Below, one piece after another: positions 51,690 to 63,182 of a stretch of 64,000 nucleotides of DNA. The stretch comes from Thioalkalivibrio sp. XN279 (lineage in GTDB: Bacteria > Pseudomonadota > Gammaproteobacteria > Steroidobacterales > XN24): the NCBI RefSeq assembly GCF_011089885.1, contig NZ_JAANBD010000027.1, positions 434,001 to 498,000 on the forward strand, read 5' to 3'. The notes beneath the pieces are model-generated. The model searched no databases. It saw only the letters and a program-made list of their open reading frames with translations, and was not told the origin of the DNA. The translations under genes and the position numbers were made by a program. Positions within the stretch are counted from its first letter, which is position 1. Every line of letters begins with the position of its first letter.

Positions 51690-51721
51690 CAGCAGCGCGA
51701 ACCCACTACACGGAGATGATC

Positions 51722-52051
51722 ATGGCTGCTGCATCAAAGAAGAAGGCTGCCAGCAAGAAGAAACCGGCTTCTCGCAAGAAGGCAGTTGCGAAGAAGAAGC
51801 CGGTTGCTCGCAAGAAGGCGGTCGCGAAGAAGCCTGCTGCGAAGAAGAAGGCGGTAGCAAAGAAGAAGCCTGCGGCGAAGAAGAAGCCGGCTGCCAAGAA
51901 GAAGCCTGCGGCGAAGAAGAAGCCTGCGGCGAAGAAGAAGCCTGCGGCGAAGAAGAAGCCTGCGGCGAAGAAGAAGCCCGCTGCCAAGAAGAAGCCGGCT
52001 ACGAAGAAGAAAGTAGCCTCGAAGAAGAAGGTGGCTTCCAAGAAGAAGTAG
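51722..52051 (+). CDS. Histone H1-like lysine/alanine-rich repeat protein
   Basis: A 109-residue protein made almost only of Lys, Ala, Pro, Ser and Val in KKPAAK-type repeats. It resembles the C-terminal tails of histone H1, bacterial AlgP and Hc1-like DNA-binding proteins. It should bind DNA non-specifically and be disordered. I chose the ATG at 51722 because GGAG at 51712-51715 then has a proper six-base spacing; the ATG at 51716 abuts it. Short perfect tandem repeats suggest length variation between strains. No globular domain is seen. Confidence 0.85.
   Translation: MAAASKKKAASKKKPASRKKAVAKKKPVARKKAVAKKPAAKKKAVAKKKPAAKKKPAAKKKPAAKKKPAAKKKPAAKKKPAAKKKPAAKKKPATKKKVASKKKVASKKK
51896..51967 (+). 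repeat. Four identical 18-base tandem repeats within the lysine-rich gene
   Basis: The unit AAGAAGAAGCCTGCGGCG (KKKPAA) occurs four times with no mismatch, followed by degenerate copies to about 52020. Identical units of this size can slip during replication, changing protein length in steps of six residues while keeping the frame. Confidence 0.9.
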
Positions 52052-52174: not shown

Positions 52175-52834
52175 ATGGACCAGGACAGCAAGAAAACCGC
52201 AGTGGGCCGCGCCGCAGCGGCCGAGGTGCCGGACGGATGCCGGCTGGGTGTCGGCACGGGATCGACCGTCAACCGCTTCATCGATGCGCTGGCAGAGCGC
52301 GGCGTGGCGCTGGCCTGCGTCGTATCGAGCTCCGAGGCCACCACGACCCGTCTGCAGGGACACGGGATCGCCGTCAGCGATTTGAACAGCACCGGCGACC
52401 TGGATCTCTACATCGACGGCGCTGACGAGATCGACGGCGCCGGCCACATGATCAAGGGCGGGGGCGGCGCCCTGACGCGCGAGAAAATCGTCGCGGCCGC
52501 CTCACGACGCTTCATCTGCATCGTCGACGACAGCAAGGTCGTGCGGGTGCTCGGCGATTTCCCCTTGCCGGTGGAGGTCATCCCGATGGCGCGCTCCTAC
52601 GTTGCGCGCCAGATGGTCAAGCTCGGCGGCCTGCCCGAATACCGCGAGGGATTCGTCACCGACAACGGCAACGTGATCCTCGACGTGCGCCACCTCGATA
52701 TCGTCGACCCGGTGCGACTGGAAGACCGTATCAACAGCATCCCCGGGGTGGTCACCGTCGGCATCTTCGGACACCAGAAAGCCCACCTTACGCTGGCCGC
52801 GACCGACGACGGCGTGCGCCGCATCGAATACTGA
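52175..52834 (+). CDS. rpiA: Ribose-5-phosphate isomerase A
   Basis: A 219-residue enzyme interconverting ribose 5-phosphate and ribulose 5-phosphate. The phosphate loop is [14 protein letters not shown] near residue 23, the catalytic aspartate region is [27 protein letters not shown], and PVEVIPMA is conserved. It ends with [15 protein letters not shown], a typical closing strand. GGAGG lies before the ATG. A strong terminator follows the stop codon. It complements rpe at 57925 in the pentose phosphate pathway. Confidence 0.97.
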
Positions 52835-52837
52835 GCC

Positions 52838-52872
52838 AAAAAAAAACGGGGCCCCTTGCGGGGCCCCGTTTT
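52838..52872 (+). terminator. Intrinsic terminator after rpiA (copy 1 of a duplicated terminator)
   Basis: Ten-base arms ACGGGGCCCC and GGGGCCCCGT with a TTGC loop, A tract before and TTTT after, so it can work on both strands. It lies four bases from the rpiA stop. The same stem, loop and flank recur at 53013-53045. Confidence 0.9.
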
Positions 52873-52878
52873 CTCGTT

Positions 52879-53010
52879 TGGCTGGGGGACCAGGATTGAC
52901 TCGGGCCTGCGGCCCTCGCCCTGCGGGCGGCGTCGCTTCGCTCCACCGTCTGGTCGCCGCGCTGACGCGCAGCTCCCGATCGAACCTGAGGTTCTAATCC
53001 TGCTCCCCCA
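52879..53010 (-). repeat. Palindromic element with tRNA-Gln-like ends
   Basis: A 132-base stretch between two terminator copies. On the minus strand it opens with the acceptor sequence TGGGGGA and closes with AATCCTGGTCCCCCAGCCA, identical to the 3' end of the neighbouring tRNA-Gln including CCA. The two ends are near-perfect inverted copies of each other over 15 bases. The interior is not a tRNA but a row of small palindromes, for example GGGCCTGCGGCCC and GAACCTCAGGTTC. It is either a tRNA relic filled by inserted DNA or a short mobile repeat. Confidence 0.65.
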
Positions 53011-53012
53011 AC

Positions 53013-53045
53013 GAAAAAACGGGGCCCCTTGCGGGGCCCCGTTTT
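53013..53045 (-). terminator. Intrinsic terminator of the tRNA-Gln/rplM-rpsI unit (copy 2)
   Basis: On the minus strand, seven bases after the tRNA 3' end, stem ACGGGGCCCC / GGGGCCCCGT with a GCAA loop is followed by TTTTTT. It is a classical terminator and duplicates the one after rpiA. Confidence 0.9.
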
Positions 53046-53051
53046 CTCGTT

Positions 53052-53125
53052 TGGCTGGGGGACCAGGATTCGAACCTGGGTTGACGGAGTCAGAGTCCGT
53101 AGTCCTACCGCTAGACGATCCCCCA
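53052..53125 (-). tRNA. tRNA-Gln (anticodon CUG)
   Basis: On the minus strand a 74-base cloverleaf begins TGGGGGATCGTCTAGCGGTA and ends in an encoded GCCA. The anticodon stem ACGGA/TCCGT flanks the loop CTCTGAC, so the anticodon is CUG, reading CAG. The T arm CAGGTTCGAATCCTG is standard. It lies only 23 bases after rpsI and seven bases before a terminator, so it is probably processed from the rplM-rpsI transcript. Confidence 0.95.
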
Positions 53126-53148
53126 ATTCGGGAAGCGCGTTGCTCTGC

Positions 53149-53541
53149 TCAGCGCTTCGAGTACTGGGTGGCGCGACGCGCCTTGCGCAGGCCGACCTTC
53201 TTGCGCTCCACCTCGCGCGCATCGCGGGTGACGAACCCGGCCTGGCGCAGCGACGTCTTCAGCGACGGGTCGTAGTCTACCAGCGCCCGCGTCAGGCCAT
53301 GGCGGATGGCGCCGGCCTGGCCGGTGGTGCCGCCGCCGTGCACGGTCACTTCCACGTCGAAGCGATCGTCCATGCGGGTCAGCTCGAGCGGCTGGCGCAC
53401 GATCATGCGTGCCGTCTTGCGCCCGAAGAACTCGTCAAGCGGCTTGCTGTTGACCGTGATAGTGCCCTTGCCGGGGCGGATGTACACCCGCGCCGTGGAG
53501 GTCTTGCGACGGCCGGTGCCGTAATTCATGTCGATGCTCAT
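53149..53541 (-). CDS. rpsI: 30S ribosomal protein S9
   Basis: A 130-residue ribosomal protein of the small subunit. [21 protein letters not shown] opens the fold and the C-terminus ends [12 protein letters not shown], the basic tail that reaches the P-site tRNA. The [19 protein letters not shown] signature is present. The start at 53541 adds four residues to the alternative ATG at 53529. It follows rplM by 17 bases. Confidence 0.97.
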
Positions 53542-60549: not shown

Positions 60550-61820
60550 GCCGTGCCCTGCTGGCGCGCTGCGAACGGCTGCTGTGGGAGGATTCCGGCG
60601 CCACCCGCCAGCCGCTGCGGCGCCTGCTCTTGCTGCCGGCGCGCTTCGCCTACGCCGTCGCCCGCGACCTGTCCCAGGGCCAGCTCACCCTGCGCGCCAT
60701 GAGCCTGGTCTACACCACCCTGCTCTCGGTCGTCCCGTTGCTGGCGTTCAGTTTTTCGGTGCTGAAGGGCTTCGGCGTACACCGGCAGGTCGAGCCCCTC
60801 TTGTACGAGTTCCTCGCGCCGCTCGGCGACAAGGGCGCAGAGATCACCAGCCAGATCATCGCGTTCGTCGAGAACGTGCGCGGCAGCGTGCTGGGCGGCA
60901 TCGGCCTGGCGCTGTTGGTGTTCACCGTGATCTCGATGGTGCAGAAGGTGGAGGACACCTTCAACCACATCTGGCAGGTCCAGCAGTCGCGCAGCATCGC
61001 GCGGCGCTTCAGCGACTATCTCAGCGTGATCCTGGTGGGGCCGATCCTGATGGTCACGGCCATGGGCATGCTCGCGACCATCAACTCGAGCGCCGCCATG
61101 CAGGCCATCACCGGCATCGAGCCCTTCGGCTCGCTCATCGCGCTGCTCAGCCGCCTCGCGCCCTTCGTGCTGGTGGTGCTGGTGTTCGCCTTCGTCTATG
61201 CCTTCGTGCCCAACACCAGGGTGCGCATCAGCGCTGCGCTGGTGGGCGCCGCCGTGGCCGGCATCGCATGGACCCTGGGCGGCTCGCTGTTCGCCTCCAT
61301 AGTGGTGGGCTCGACGCGTTACGCCGCCATCTATTCCAGCTTCGCCATCGCCATCGTGGCGCTGATCTGGCTTTACCTGTCCTGGCTGATCCTGTTGCTC
61401 GGCGCGCAGGTGGCGTTCTACGTCCAGAACCCCGGGCGACTGCGCTATGGCCACTCGCGCCTGCAACTGTCCATCACCGAGGTGGAGAACCTGGCGCTGG
61501 CGATCATGCAGCAGGTGGCGCGCGGCTTCCACCACGGCCGCCGGCCGGGCTTTGCCCAGCTGGCCCAGGCATTGCAGTACCCGGCGCGCGCGCTGGAAGA
61601 GATCACCGCGCACCTCGAGCAGGCGGGACTGCTGTTGCTTACCGAAGAAGAAACCTTCGTGCCGGGGCGCGCGCCGGCCGCCATCAGCGTGGCGGAAATT
61701 CTCGCCGCCGTGCGCGGCGAAATGCGCAGCGACGCGCAGCCGGCGGCCGATGTGCTGCGCTCGGCGCGAGAAGCGGAAACCCGGAGCCTCGACGGCCACA
61801 CCCTGGCCGACCTGGTCTGA
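60546..61820 (+). CDS. YihY/BrkB family inner-membrane protein
   Basis: A 424-residue protein with about six transmembrane helices followed by a soluble C-terminal domain. The core [42 protein letters not shown] and [29 protein letters not shown] are conserved in the YihY family (once called RNase BN in error). The C-terminal winged-helix-like stretch ([24 protein letters not shown]) suggests a regulatory or binding role. Function unknown. Its ATG overlaps purC by 4 bases. Confidence 0.9.
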
Positions 61821-61832
61821 AGCCAGGTACCG

Positions 61833-63182
61833 TCAGTCGCCGGCCACCGTCATGCGTCCGACGAGCAGCGAACCCGACTGGATGACGCCGCGCGTATCCA
61901 CGTCGGAACCGATGGCCTGGATGTCGAGATACAGGTCTTTCAGGTTGCCGGCAATCGTCACCTCGTGGACCGGGTGCGCGATCTCGCCGCCCTCGACCCA
62001 GAAGCCGCTGGCGCCGCGCGAGTAATCGCCGGTCACGCCGTTGACGCCCTGGCCCATGAGTTCCGTCACCACCAGCCCGCGTCCCATCTGCCGCAACAGG
62101 GCGTCGAAATCCCGCCCGTCGCCGAGCACGCGCAAGTTGTGTATGCCGCCCGCATTGCCCGTGGTGCGCAATCCCAGGCGGCGTGCCGAATAGCTGGAAA
62201 GCACGTAGCCCTGCAGCACGCCCGCTGCGACCAGCACGCGGTCGTGCGTGGCGACGCCCTCGGCATCGAAGGGCGCAGAGCCAATCGCGCGCTCGACGTG
62301 CGGCCGTTCCTCCAGGCTCATCCAGTCGGGCAGCACCTGCGTGCCGGCCGCATCCAGCAGGAAGCTCGCCTTGCGATACTGCGCGCCGCCCTTGACCGCG
62401 CCGACCAGGTGGCCGAGAAAGCCCCGTGCCAGCTCGGCAACGAAAATCACCGGCACGCTGCGCGTGGCCAGCTTGCGCGCGCCGAGCCGGCGCAAGGTGC
62501 GCTCCGCGGCACGGCGTCCGACCGCTTCCGGCGATTCCAGCACGTCCGCGCAGCGCGACAGGGTGTACCAGTAATCCCGCTGCATCTGGTCGCCCTTGCC
62601 GGCGATGAGCGCGCAGCTGAGGCTATGGCTGGTGCTGGCGTAGCCGCCGCTGAAACCGTGGGTGTTGGCGTAGACCCGCAAACCCCGGTGGCTGGAGAGT
62701 GACCCACCCTCGGTGTTGGTGATGCGCGCGTCGGCCTGCAGTCCCGCCGCCTCGCAGTCGCGCGCCAGGGCGACCGCCTGGTCCGGATCGATGTGCCAGG
62801 GGTGGTCCAGGTCCAGGTCGGGCGGATCGACCGCCATGCATTCCGGGTCAGGCAAGCCCGCACAGGCGTCCTCGGCCGTGTAGCGCGCGATGGTGCAGGC
62901 CTTGTCGACCGTTTCCTCGATGGCCCGGGGCGCGAGGTCCGAGGTGCTGGCGCTGCCCTTGCGCTGCCCGAAGTAGACGGTGACGCTGAAGCCACGGTCG
63001 CGCTGGTGCTCCAGCGTTTCCACCTCCCCCTTGCGCACCGTCACCGACAGGCCGCCGGCCAGGCTCGCGCCCACCTCGGCGGCCGAGGCGCCGCCCTTGC
63101 GGGCGCGCGCCAGCGCATCTTCGGCCAGCGCCTCGAGTCGCGCACGCGCGGCCTCGAGATCGCTCAGATCAGACGACGACAT
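61833..63182 (-). CDS. pmbA: Metalloprotease-associated protein PmbA (TldE)
   Basis: A 449-residue TldE-type subunit that works with TldD to process peptides such as microcins and ring-modified substrates. Key features are VTVRKGEVETLEHQRDRGFSVTVYFGQRKGSAST near the start and GIHNLRVLGDGRDFDALLRQMGRGLVVTELMGQGVNGVTGDYSRGASGFW near the end. The HExxxH zinc motif of TldD is absent, which is normal for the PmbA subunit. The start at 63182 gives MSSSDLSDLEAA. Confidence 0.94.
   Translation of the reverse strand: MSSSDLSDLEAARARLEALAEDALARARKGGASAAEVGASLAGGLSVTVRKGEVETLEHQRDRGFSVTVYFGQRKGSASTSDLAPRAIEETVDKACTIARYTAEDACAGLPDPECMAVDPPDLDLDHPWHIDPDQAVALARDCEAAGLQADARITNTEGGSLSSHRGLRVYANTHGFSGGYASTSHSLSCALIAGKGDQMQRDYWYTLSRCADVLESPEAVGRRAAERTLRRLGARKLATRSVPVIFVAELARGFLGHLVGAVKGGAQYRKASFLLDAAGTQVLPDWMSLEERPHVERAIGSAPFDAEGVATHDRVLVAAGVLQGYVLSSYSARRLGLRTTGNAGGIHNLRVLGDGRDFDALLRQMGRGLVVTELMGQGVNGVTGDYSRGASGFWVEGGEIAHPVHEVTIAGNLKDLYLDIQAIGSDVDTRGVIQSGSLLVGRMTVAGD

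Follow-up and report, generated by a model that had tools for sequence, protein, structure and literature searches.

RtT repeats and other small palindromic elements

REP sequences and BIMEs are short, palindromic and strand-specific repeats without genes, and the Rickettsia palindromic elements are small palindromic insertions inside genes. The ends of tRNA genes are classic integration targets, and the integrative elements that use them leave a duplicate tRNA 3' end downstream. In Escherichia coli, the rtT repeats of the tyrT locus adjoin a tRNA gene as tandem units and are annotated as the ncRNA rttR beside tyrV. Each is built in the order GGATGAGAAGC, AGGTTCGA, a hairpin core with CCCGAAGGGCGA, GAGTA, and the tRNA's own ATCC...CCA. 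The association of RtT with several tRNAs is not new. It is already in print for E. coli and the Pasteurellaceae, and passages of the same paper report one kind of RtT-type RNA in most Pasteurellaceae and Northern signals for two RtT-type RNAs of Actinobacillus pleuropneumoniae (PMC4986893). Passages of other papers link rtT to REPs, either through a similarity of the attenuator cluster belonging to BIMEs (PMC2965389) or by listing rttR as holding a REP (PMC12306157). In the literature searched, mostly freely accessible papers and including the passages compared from these three sources and PMC7657543, no description of RtT as a tRNA-loop insertion was found. The element described below is probably the fossil of a small, strand-specific hairpin mobile element of this kind, one whose landing site is GA^A within a tRNA loop (the caret marks the break).

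An RtT-like element at a duplicated tRNA-Gln end

The window analysed here is a stretch of 64,000 nucleotides from Thioalkalivibrio sp. XN279 (contig NZ_JAANBD010000027.1). It holds an intact tRNA-Gln(CTG) gene with an encoded CCA (53052-53125, minus strand; called by ARAGORN, 61.4 bits with the Rfam tRNA model), which lies downstream of the gene for ribosomal protein S9 (53149-53541, minus strand; Pfam PF00380, E 3e-50) and opposite the convergent neighbour rpiA (52175-52834, plus strand; Pfam PF06026, E 4e-58). This tRNA is the host of an element on the same minus strand. Read in the direction of the tRNA, the locus runs through tRNA-Gln, terminator, inverted acceptor/T arm, GGTTCGA, 83-nt core, tail and terminator again. 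The terminator hairpin by the intact tRNA (53016-53045), found as an inverted repeat and within a direct repeat, is followed by TGGGGGAGCAGGATTAGAACC (53010-52990), an inverted copy of the tRNA-Gln acceptor/T arm that forms the 5' end of the inter-repeat stretch and, judged by sequence and fold, can pair with the tail. GGTTCGA (52980-52986), recognised by sequence and by its match to the R1 model described below, is the 5' half of the T loop of a second tRNA end and the left flank of the core. The core itself (52897-52979) is an RtT-like chain of hairpins at the T-loop GA^A, located by the models R1 and R2 and by Rfam RtT. The tail, ATCCTGGTCCCCCAGCCA (52896-52879), is the exact 3' end of tRNA-Gln from T-loop position 59 to the CCA, identical in 16/16 of the last 16 nt, and the second terminator hairpin (52843-52872; inverted repeat I3, direct repeat D1) was duplicated along with it. 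The second tRNA-Gln 3' end is broken within its T loop (GGTTCGA^ATCC) by the 83-nt hairpin core; one base of the junction is ambiguous, with an A on either side. Because the core sits in the T loop of this second 3' end, the tail and the terminator occur twice here.

A repeat search recovers the duplication as a perfect 57-nt direct repeat (52841-52897 and 53014-53070, 173 nt start to start) that takes in the terminator hairpin together with the final 19 nt of tRNA-Gln(CTG). The original prediction, made from the sequence without database searches, had described direct repeats of about 50 bases that comprise the terminator, its flanks and the tRNA-Gln 3' end, and these are real. Its 132-base interval holds as the distance spanned by the acceptor-like ends (52879-53010) and not as the stretch between the repeats, which measures 116 nt; the ends are, as it stated, inverted copies of the tRNA acceptor/T arm (53010-52990 against 52896-52879). 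It had further proposed a decayed second tRNA-Gln colonised by a palindromic repeat. A colonised tRNA end is indeed present, but just the 3' end and the downstream flank were duplicated. ARAGORN calls no tRNA besides 53052-53125 in this region, and by this test the second copy does not fold as a tRNA. A simple terminator pattern scan returned nothing in 52700-53300; the 13-bp terminator hairpin, with T runs beside it, is plain by eye in the sequence, and pairing between the T and A tracts probably made the scan miss it. Elsewhere in the window, a selenocysteine tRNA gene is called at 61757-61855 (minus strand), and an ORF beside rpiA (51716-52051) encodes a lysine/alanine-rich repeat protein with AAKKKP repeats.

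Kinship with E. coli RtT

The full length of the Rfam RtT model (RF00391) aligns with 52879-53019, scoring 41 bits (E 3e-6). This falls short of the curated gathering cut-off of 45 bits, and the element is therefore named RtT-like, homologous yet outside the curated threshold. A core model, R1, was built from 17 sequences from the window and its relatives, with E. coli left out, and contains 20 pairs. It matches all three tyrTV repeats of E. coli K-12 with E values from 9e-8 to 6e-7; this comparison identifies the window element as a homologue of the rtT repeats at E. coli tyrT. In the window, R1 matches 52893-52986 (E 2e-16) and the core-only model R2 matches 52897-52978 (E 1.6e-9), the window's core being among the training sequences in both cases. 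R2 contains 13 pairs against the 20 of R1, and as its computed structure is poorer it was used only for locating copies.

The window element shares with E. coli rtT the order of its parts, and like rtT it adjoins a tRNA gene and carries that gene's 3' end, of which the last 16 nt are identical. It differs in its host, which is tRNA-Gln, in consisting of one unit rather than three, and in the terminator hairpin between tRNA and unit, where none was discerned by eye in E. coli. With the Rfam cut-off applied, only E. coli and one of 19 other loci (L082) yielded units, so that much of the family may go unannotated.

Spread of the family and the tRNA ends it carries

The window's genome holds a single copy, the next-best R1 and R2 matches having E values of 0.23 and 0.43. 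A search for copies of the interior had been proposed, and there are many in relatives, beside other tRNAs. Used as a DNA query, the window element matches 25 of 59 genomes, its own genome and terminator-only matches counted. Of the 274 genomes searched in the class, 95 carry R1 cores; for the phylum the figure is 67 of 398, and R2 cores occur in 54 of 196 genomes of the order, with the window's own genome counted each time and stricter filters applied in the searches of these large sets. A core pattern scan of named genomes returned at least 119 stretches, 80 of them titled, and all but four of these 80 are Gammaproteobacteria by name. The exceptions are one Zetaproteobacteria record, confirmed by R1, one Akkermansia bin with a weak match (R1 E 0.011) and two stretches titled Proteobacteria only. 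Plasmid and phage DNA searched with the window element gave no match at E 0.01, and neither did phage DNA searched with the core of one relative. Six viral contigs (L281-L286) contain the core pattern.

The copies compared below comprise 172 unique R1 matches at 130 loci (21 picked from the DNA-query matches, 29 given and 80 picked among the class matches listed) and 99 R2 matches at 90 loci (30 given, 60 chosen). R1 favours matches at tRNAs because 11 of its positions are tRNA-derived. With R2, a tRNA is called within 140 nt upstream in 42 of the 99 matches, in stretches that often reach just 300 nt to each side.

A same-strand tRNA ends 45-116 nt upstream of 92 of the 172 R1 matches (Ser 39, Gln 23, Arg 20, Tyr 4, Glu 3, and Pro, Gly and Thr 1 each), and all tail and spacer counts refer to these 92 units. 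Over the final 16 nt of the neighbouring tRNA, the tail agrees at 15 or more positions in 60 of them, and in 27 of those 60 the 40 nt past the CCA are also repeated (at least 32 alike). Set against tRNAs of other types, the local tRNA agrees better with the tail in 74 of the 92 units, equally well in 6 and worse in 12. In 62 units, an inverted copy of the neighbouring tRNA's 3' end outscores 95% of the tRNAs of other types, and a terminator-like hairpin lies between tRNA and unit in 63. Tandem arrays of units occur in relatives. At one locus (L085, from G172), units flank several kilobases downstream of a tRNA-Ser, and ORFs in the interval resemble, by eye, HigA/HigB and AbrB-type antitoxins.

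The same tRNA-Gln locus was compared in six genomes of the window's family. The core is present in four of them (G002, G003, G004 and G006, in the last without the tail), a remnant was read by eye in G001 (E 0.05), and G005 has no core at this locus up to E 1 (L277). Among loci from other families, L025 and L031 gave no match up to E 1 and L034 gave one of E 0.14. These loci bear on the simplest account, by which tRNA-Gln was duplicated in tandem and the second copy, once stripped of its 5' half, drifted into a palindrome. Such decay could leave an exact second 3' end with its terminator, and tandem unit arrays do exist. It had been expected to show itself as a lone copy with a clear tandem tRNA-Gln in sister species, but relatives do hold copies, and one called tRNA-Gln, not two, stands at each of the six family loci. 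Since the interior is moreover a conserved, covarying family at many other tRNAs, simple decay is largely refuted and hardly credible any longer. In G001, of the same genus, the sole tRNA-Gln(CTG) match at E 1e-5 (L275, 1928-2011) covers nt 1-66; the acceptor 3' strand and CCA are replaced, and an intact inverted copy of that end lies past the terminator. This is either a broken tRNA or an assembly error at the palindrome.

Insertion points in tRNA loops

Other copies of the core sit inside 5' tRNA copies immediately upstream of the intact gene. From 453 matches in three partly overlapping sets, 272 remained after identical stretches and unrefinable ends were dropped, and tRNA copies that are split or partial and stand next to an intact paralogue were counted where the left match score was at least 13 and the right at least 4. 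In the 25 copies that qualified, the break lies at D-loop position 22 (8 copies), at anticodon-loop position 37 (4) or in the T loop (13). It falls at GA^A in 24 of the 25, against 0.71 expected from a random position, with a breakpoint finder that gives a small bonus for GA. These copies are not independent: all four anticodon-loop cases stem from one family (f7) of the window's order, as do six of the eight in the D loop, and two of the 25 are repeats within one array. GA^A is found at all three loops in 13 of 21 tRNA-Ser rows, which may account for the predominance of Ser among the hosts. A single tRNA-Ser copy carries two cores, one in the D loop and one in the T loop (L082). Elsewhere, three cores lie head to tail within one T loop, as read by eye (L336).

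Insertion is not confined to tRNAs. A 72-nt core splits hsdM into HsdM_N and N6_Mtase pieces at CCTGA^AATTTG (L148); when the flanks are joined, they give one open frame, and there is no target duplication. No target-site duplication was seen at the split-tRNA breaks either, and a MITE of a DDE transposon was rejected as a candidate on this ground. In the window copy the 57-nt repeat consists of the tRNA end and the terminator, so that a target duplication cannot be told apart there. By eye, further copies sit in other hairpin loops outside tRNAs. Cores from other groups of the phylum belong to dispersed repeats; of 20 such stretches, each 1.6-3.1 kb long, 18 contain no called tRNA. Two longer stretches, of 15 and 20 kb (L382 and L383), hold several copies and no tRNA, and by eye no transposase that could be an autonomous partner was evident among the ORFs of L382. 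Several observations by eye may be added. Dispersed, apparently antisense 3' halves of tRNA-Phe carry a core in the T loop (L308, L325-L327, L358, L359, L367 and L377), and several of them extend from the CCA end to the vicinity of the anticodon loop, as though a tRNA half had been their source. In another group of the phylum, identical or near-identical cores lie inside longer dispersed repeats in two genomes (L387-L395 in G474, L396-L400 in G489), and in G489 a core is found inside the loop of a hairpin.

Cores also resemble one another within genomes. In a sample of one unit per locus (91), cores from the same genome at different tRNAs are 0.732 identical (33 pairs), compared with 0.628 for cores from other genomes at the same isoacceptor (397 pairs); the latter is the level of unrelated core pairs (0.629, 3665 pairs). 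After GC matching, the same-genome excess is +0.07 and is positive in 26 of 31. The nearest core overall is a same-genome partner in 14 of 45, where 0.73 would be expected. Cores are 94-96% alike in G293 and 94% alike in G320 with flanks that are unlike, agreeing in 6-9 of 30 nt upstream and 1-8 of 16 nt downstream, while in G062 the likeness continues into the right flank. Gene conversion confined to the core could be an alternative cause of such likeness.

With a single copy in the window's genome, mobility is inferred from the relatives. In the reading preferred here, the core of the RtT family would be a geneless, non-coding insertion of some 70-90 nt of hairpins that enters on one strand between GA and A, mostly in the T, D or anticodon hairpin loops of tRNA genes. 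Copies would persist where the tRNA struck is a spare (partial) copy beside an intact gene, and tandem duplication of the core together with the tRNA 3' end and terminator would give rise to arrays. The target may be a hairpin loop in single-stranded DNA, and an enzyme acting in trans may move the core. At the window locus, duplication would have accompanied or followed insertion, and this copy, an old one, presumably moves no longer. More tentatively, RtT cores could be tiny mobile nucleic acids that target a loop-exposed GA^A, entering either through single-stranded DNA at the fork or through RNA by reverse splicing and copying back. If the target is a GA^A exposed in a hairpin loop, then tRNA genes, with their three arms, would be natural landing sites. 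Such a mobile hairpin would explain the tRNA-end repeats and why they carry the neighbour's own tRNA end, as well as their abundance at tRNA-Ser genes; a hunt for the enzyme and the effect on tRNA supply would become testable in E. coli K-12.

Conserved fold and the RNA alternative

Folded as RNA, the minus strand of the window element reaches -79.5 kcal/mol compared with -56.3 (sd 3.75) in 200 shuffles (z -6.2; none of 200 as low). The plus strand folded as DNA gives z -3.0, with one of 200 shuffles as low. The interior is thus a chain of small hairpins, as first described, and one that exceeds chance. The window's inverted arm pairs with its own tail at -31.3 kcal/mol, against a mean of -18.0 with the tails of other tRNA types. 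Across the family, arm-tail pairing beats swapped pairs at the 5% level in 27 of 92 units and, among short tails, in 5 of 32; as a universal feature it is thus only partly supported. On alignments fitted to R1, compensated double changes occupy 412 and 409 cells, compared with about 116 and 121 in shuffles, and 61-85 are left when the partners are shifted by one column. G-U outnumbers A-C by 77 to 17 among 3067 pair cells. Compared with the complement, the tRNA strand gave the better fold in 110 of 169 cores and 101 of 169 whole units, a sample of 169 of the 172 R1 matches from which stretches with N were excluded. Together, the covariation, the G-U excess and the strand bias argue that one strand is the folded one, be it as RNA or as single-stranded DNA. 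The commonest hairpin loops on the tRNA strand are C(GNA)G, and loops of the GNA type are exceptionally stable in DNA.

The sequences themselves show the homology and layout, the points of insertion, the conservation of the fold, the strand bias and the likeness of cores within genomes, and the covariation and strand bias also fit a functional RNA. A functional small RNA is the most serious rival to a mobile hairpin, and the two are not mutually exclusive. By this account, read-through from the tRNA promoter would yield a precursor, cleavage of which would release an rtT-like small RNA that tunes the stringent response or tRNA charging, and the acceptor/T-stem-like helix and CCA end would mimic a tRNA for the processing enzymes. 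The strong helix of the window's arm with its own tail would suit this role, as would the conserved fold, the bias to the tRNA strand and the preponderance of G-U over A-C. The rttR annotation beside tyrV points the same way, and so do the Northern signals of the two A. pleuropneumoniae RNAs, in passages of the paper that reports them (PMC4986893). A precursor of this type is difficult to reconcile with the terminator-like hairpin that separates tRNA and element in 63 of 92 units and, by eye, here too. The copies in hsdM, in the apparent antisense tRNA-Phe halves and at sites with no tRNA called nearby have no such precursor, G-U pairs are few in number, and G005, of the same family, does without a core at this site. 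An RNA gene is accordingly possible but rather doubtful.

Transposases and integrases

Movement by a RAYT (TnpA-REP) transposase would make the element a REP sequence. The two have much in common, for REP/BIME repeats too are short, palindromic, strand-specific and geneless; a strand-specific chain of hairpins and the lack of a visible target duplication would suit a RAYT, and passages in two papers connect rtT with REPs (PMC2965389, PMC12306157). There is also a weak association with PF01797, the RAYT/IS200 family, which is present in 68 of 95 core-bearing and 105 of 179 coreless genomes of the class (p 0.036, uncorrected for descent or genome size). RtT-like elements differ from REP/BIME in lying in tRNA loops at GA^A and, here, in their single copy without a RAYT match. 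The linked RAYT/IS200-like transposase envisaged at the outset did not materialise: this genome yielded no PF01797 match at E 0.01, although a control search gave its signal, and at E 1e-5 none was found in 27 of the 95 core-bearing class genomes, including G111 with its four core matches. Movement by a RAYT is therefore improbable. As a REP element of a RAYT by membership, the window element was rejected, having no RAYT/Y1 transposase match and one copy rather than many dispersed ones. The likeness to Rickettsia palindromic elements lies in the small palindromic insertion and is drawn from their general description.

An integrative element could likewise have entered at the tRNA-Gln 3' end and been deleted, leaving two attachment-site copies and a stub. 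tRNA ends are classic targets for such elements, and one RtT-like unit lies beside a phage integrase gene. However, the same structured core recurs at the tRNAs for Ser, Arg, Gln, Tyr and further amino acids, and it also occupies D loops and anticodon loops. No integrase was evident by eye among the ORFs listed around the window copy, which is flanked by rpiA and the S9 gene. Unlike tRNA-targeting integrative elements, the window locus has no visible integrase or island, and it is the core itself that breaks the T loop. A remnant attachment site is thus very improbable, and integration of a larger mobile element at the tRNA 3' end, which the original prediction named as a favoured target, is unneeded, since the core interrupts the T loop here and the D or anticodon loop elsewhere. 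The unit beside the phage integrase gene (L017 1499-2100, from G009) carries a tRNA-Arg end and abuts that gene, with no tRNA called within the 2.1 kb of L017; this duplicate tRNA end may have been used as a spare attachment site.
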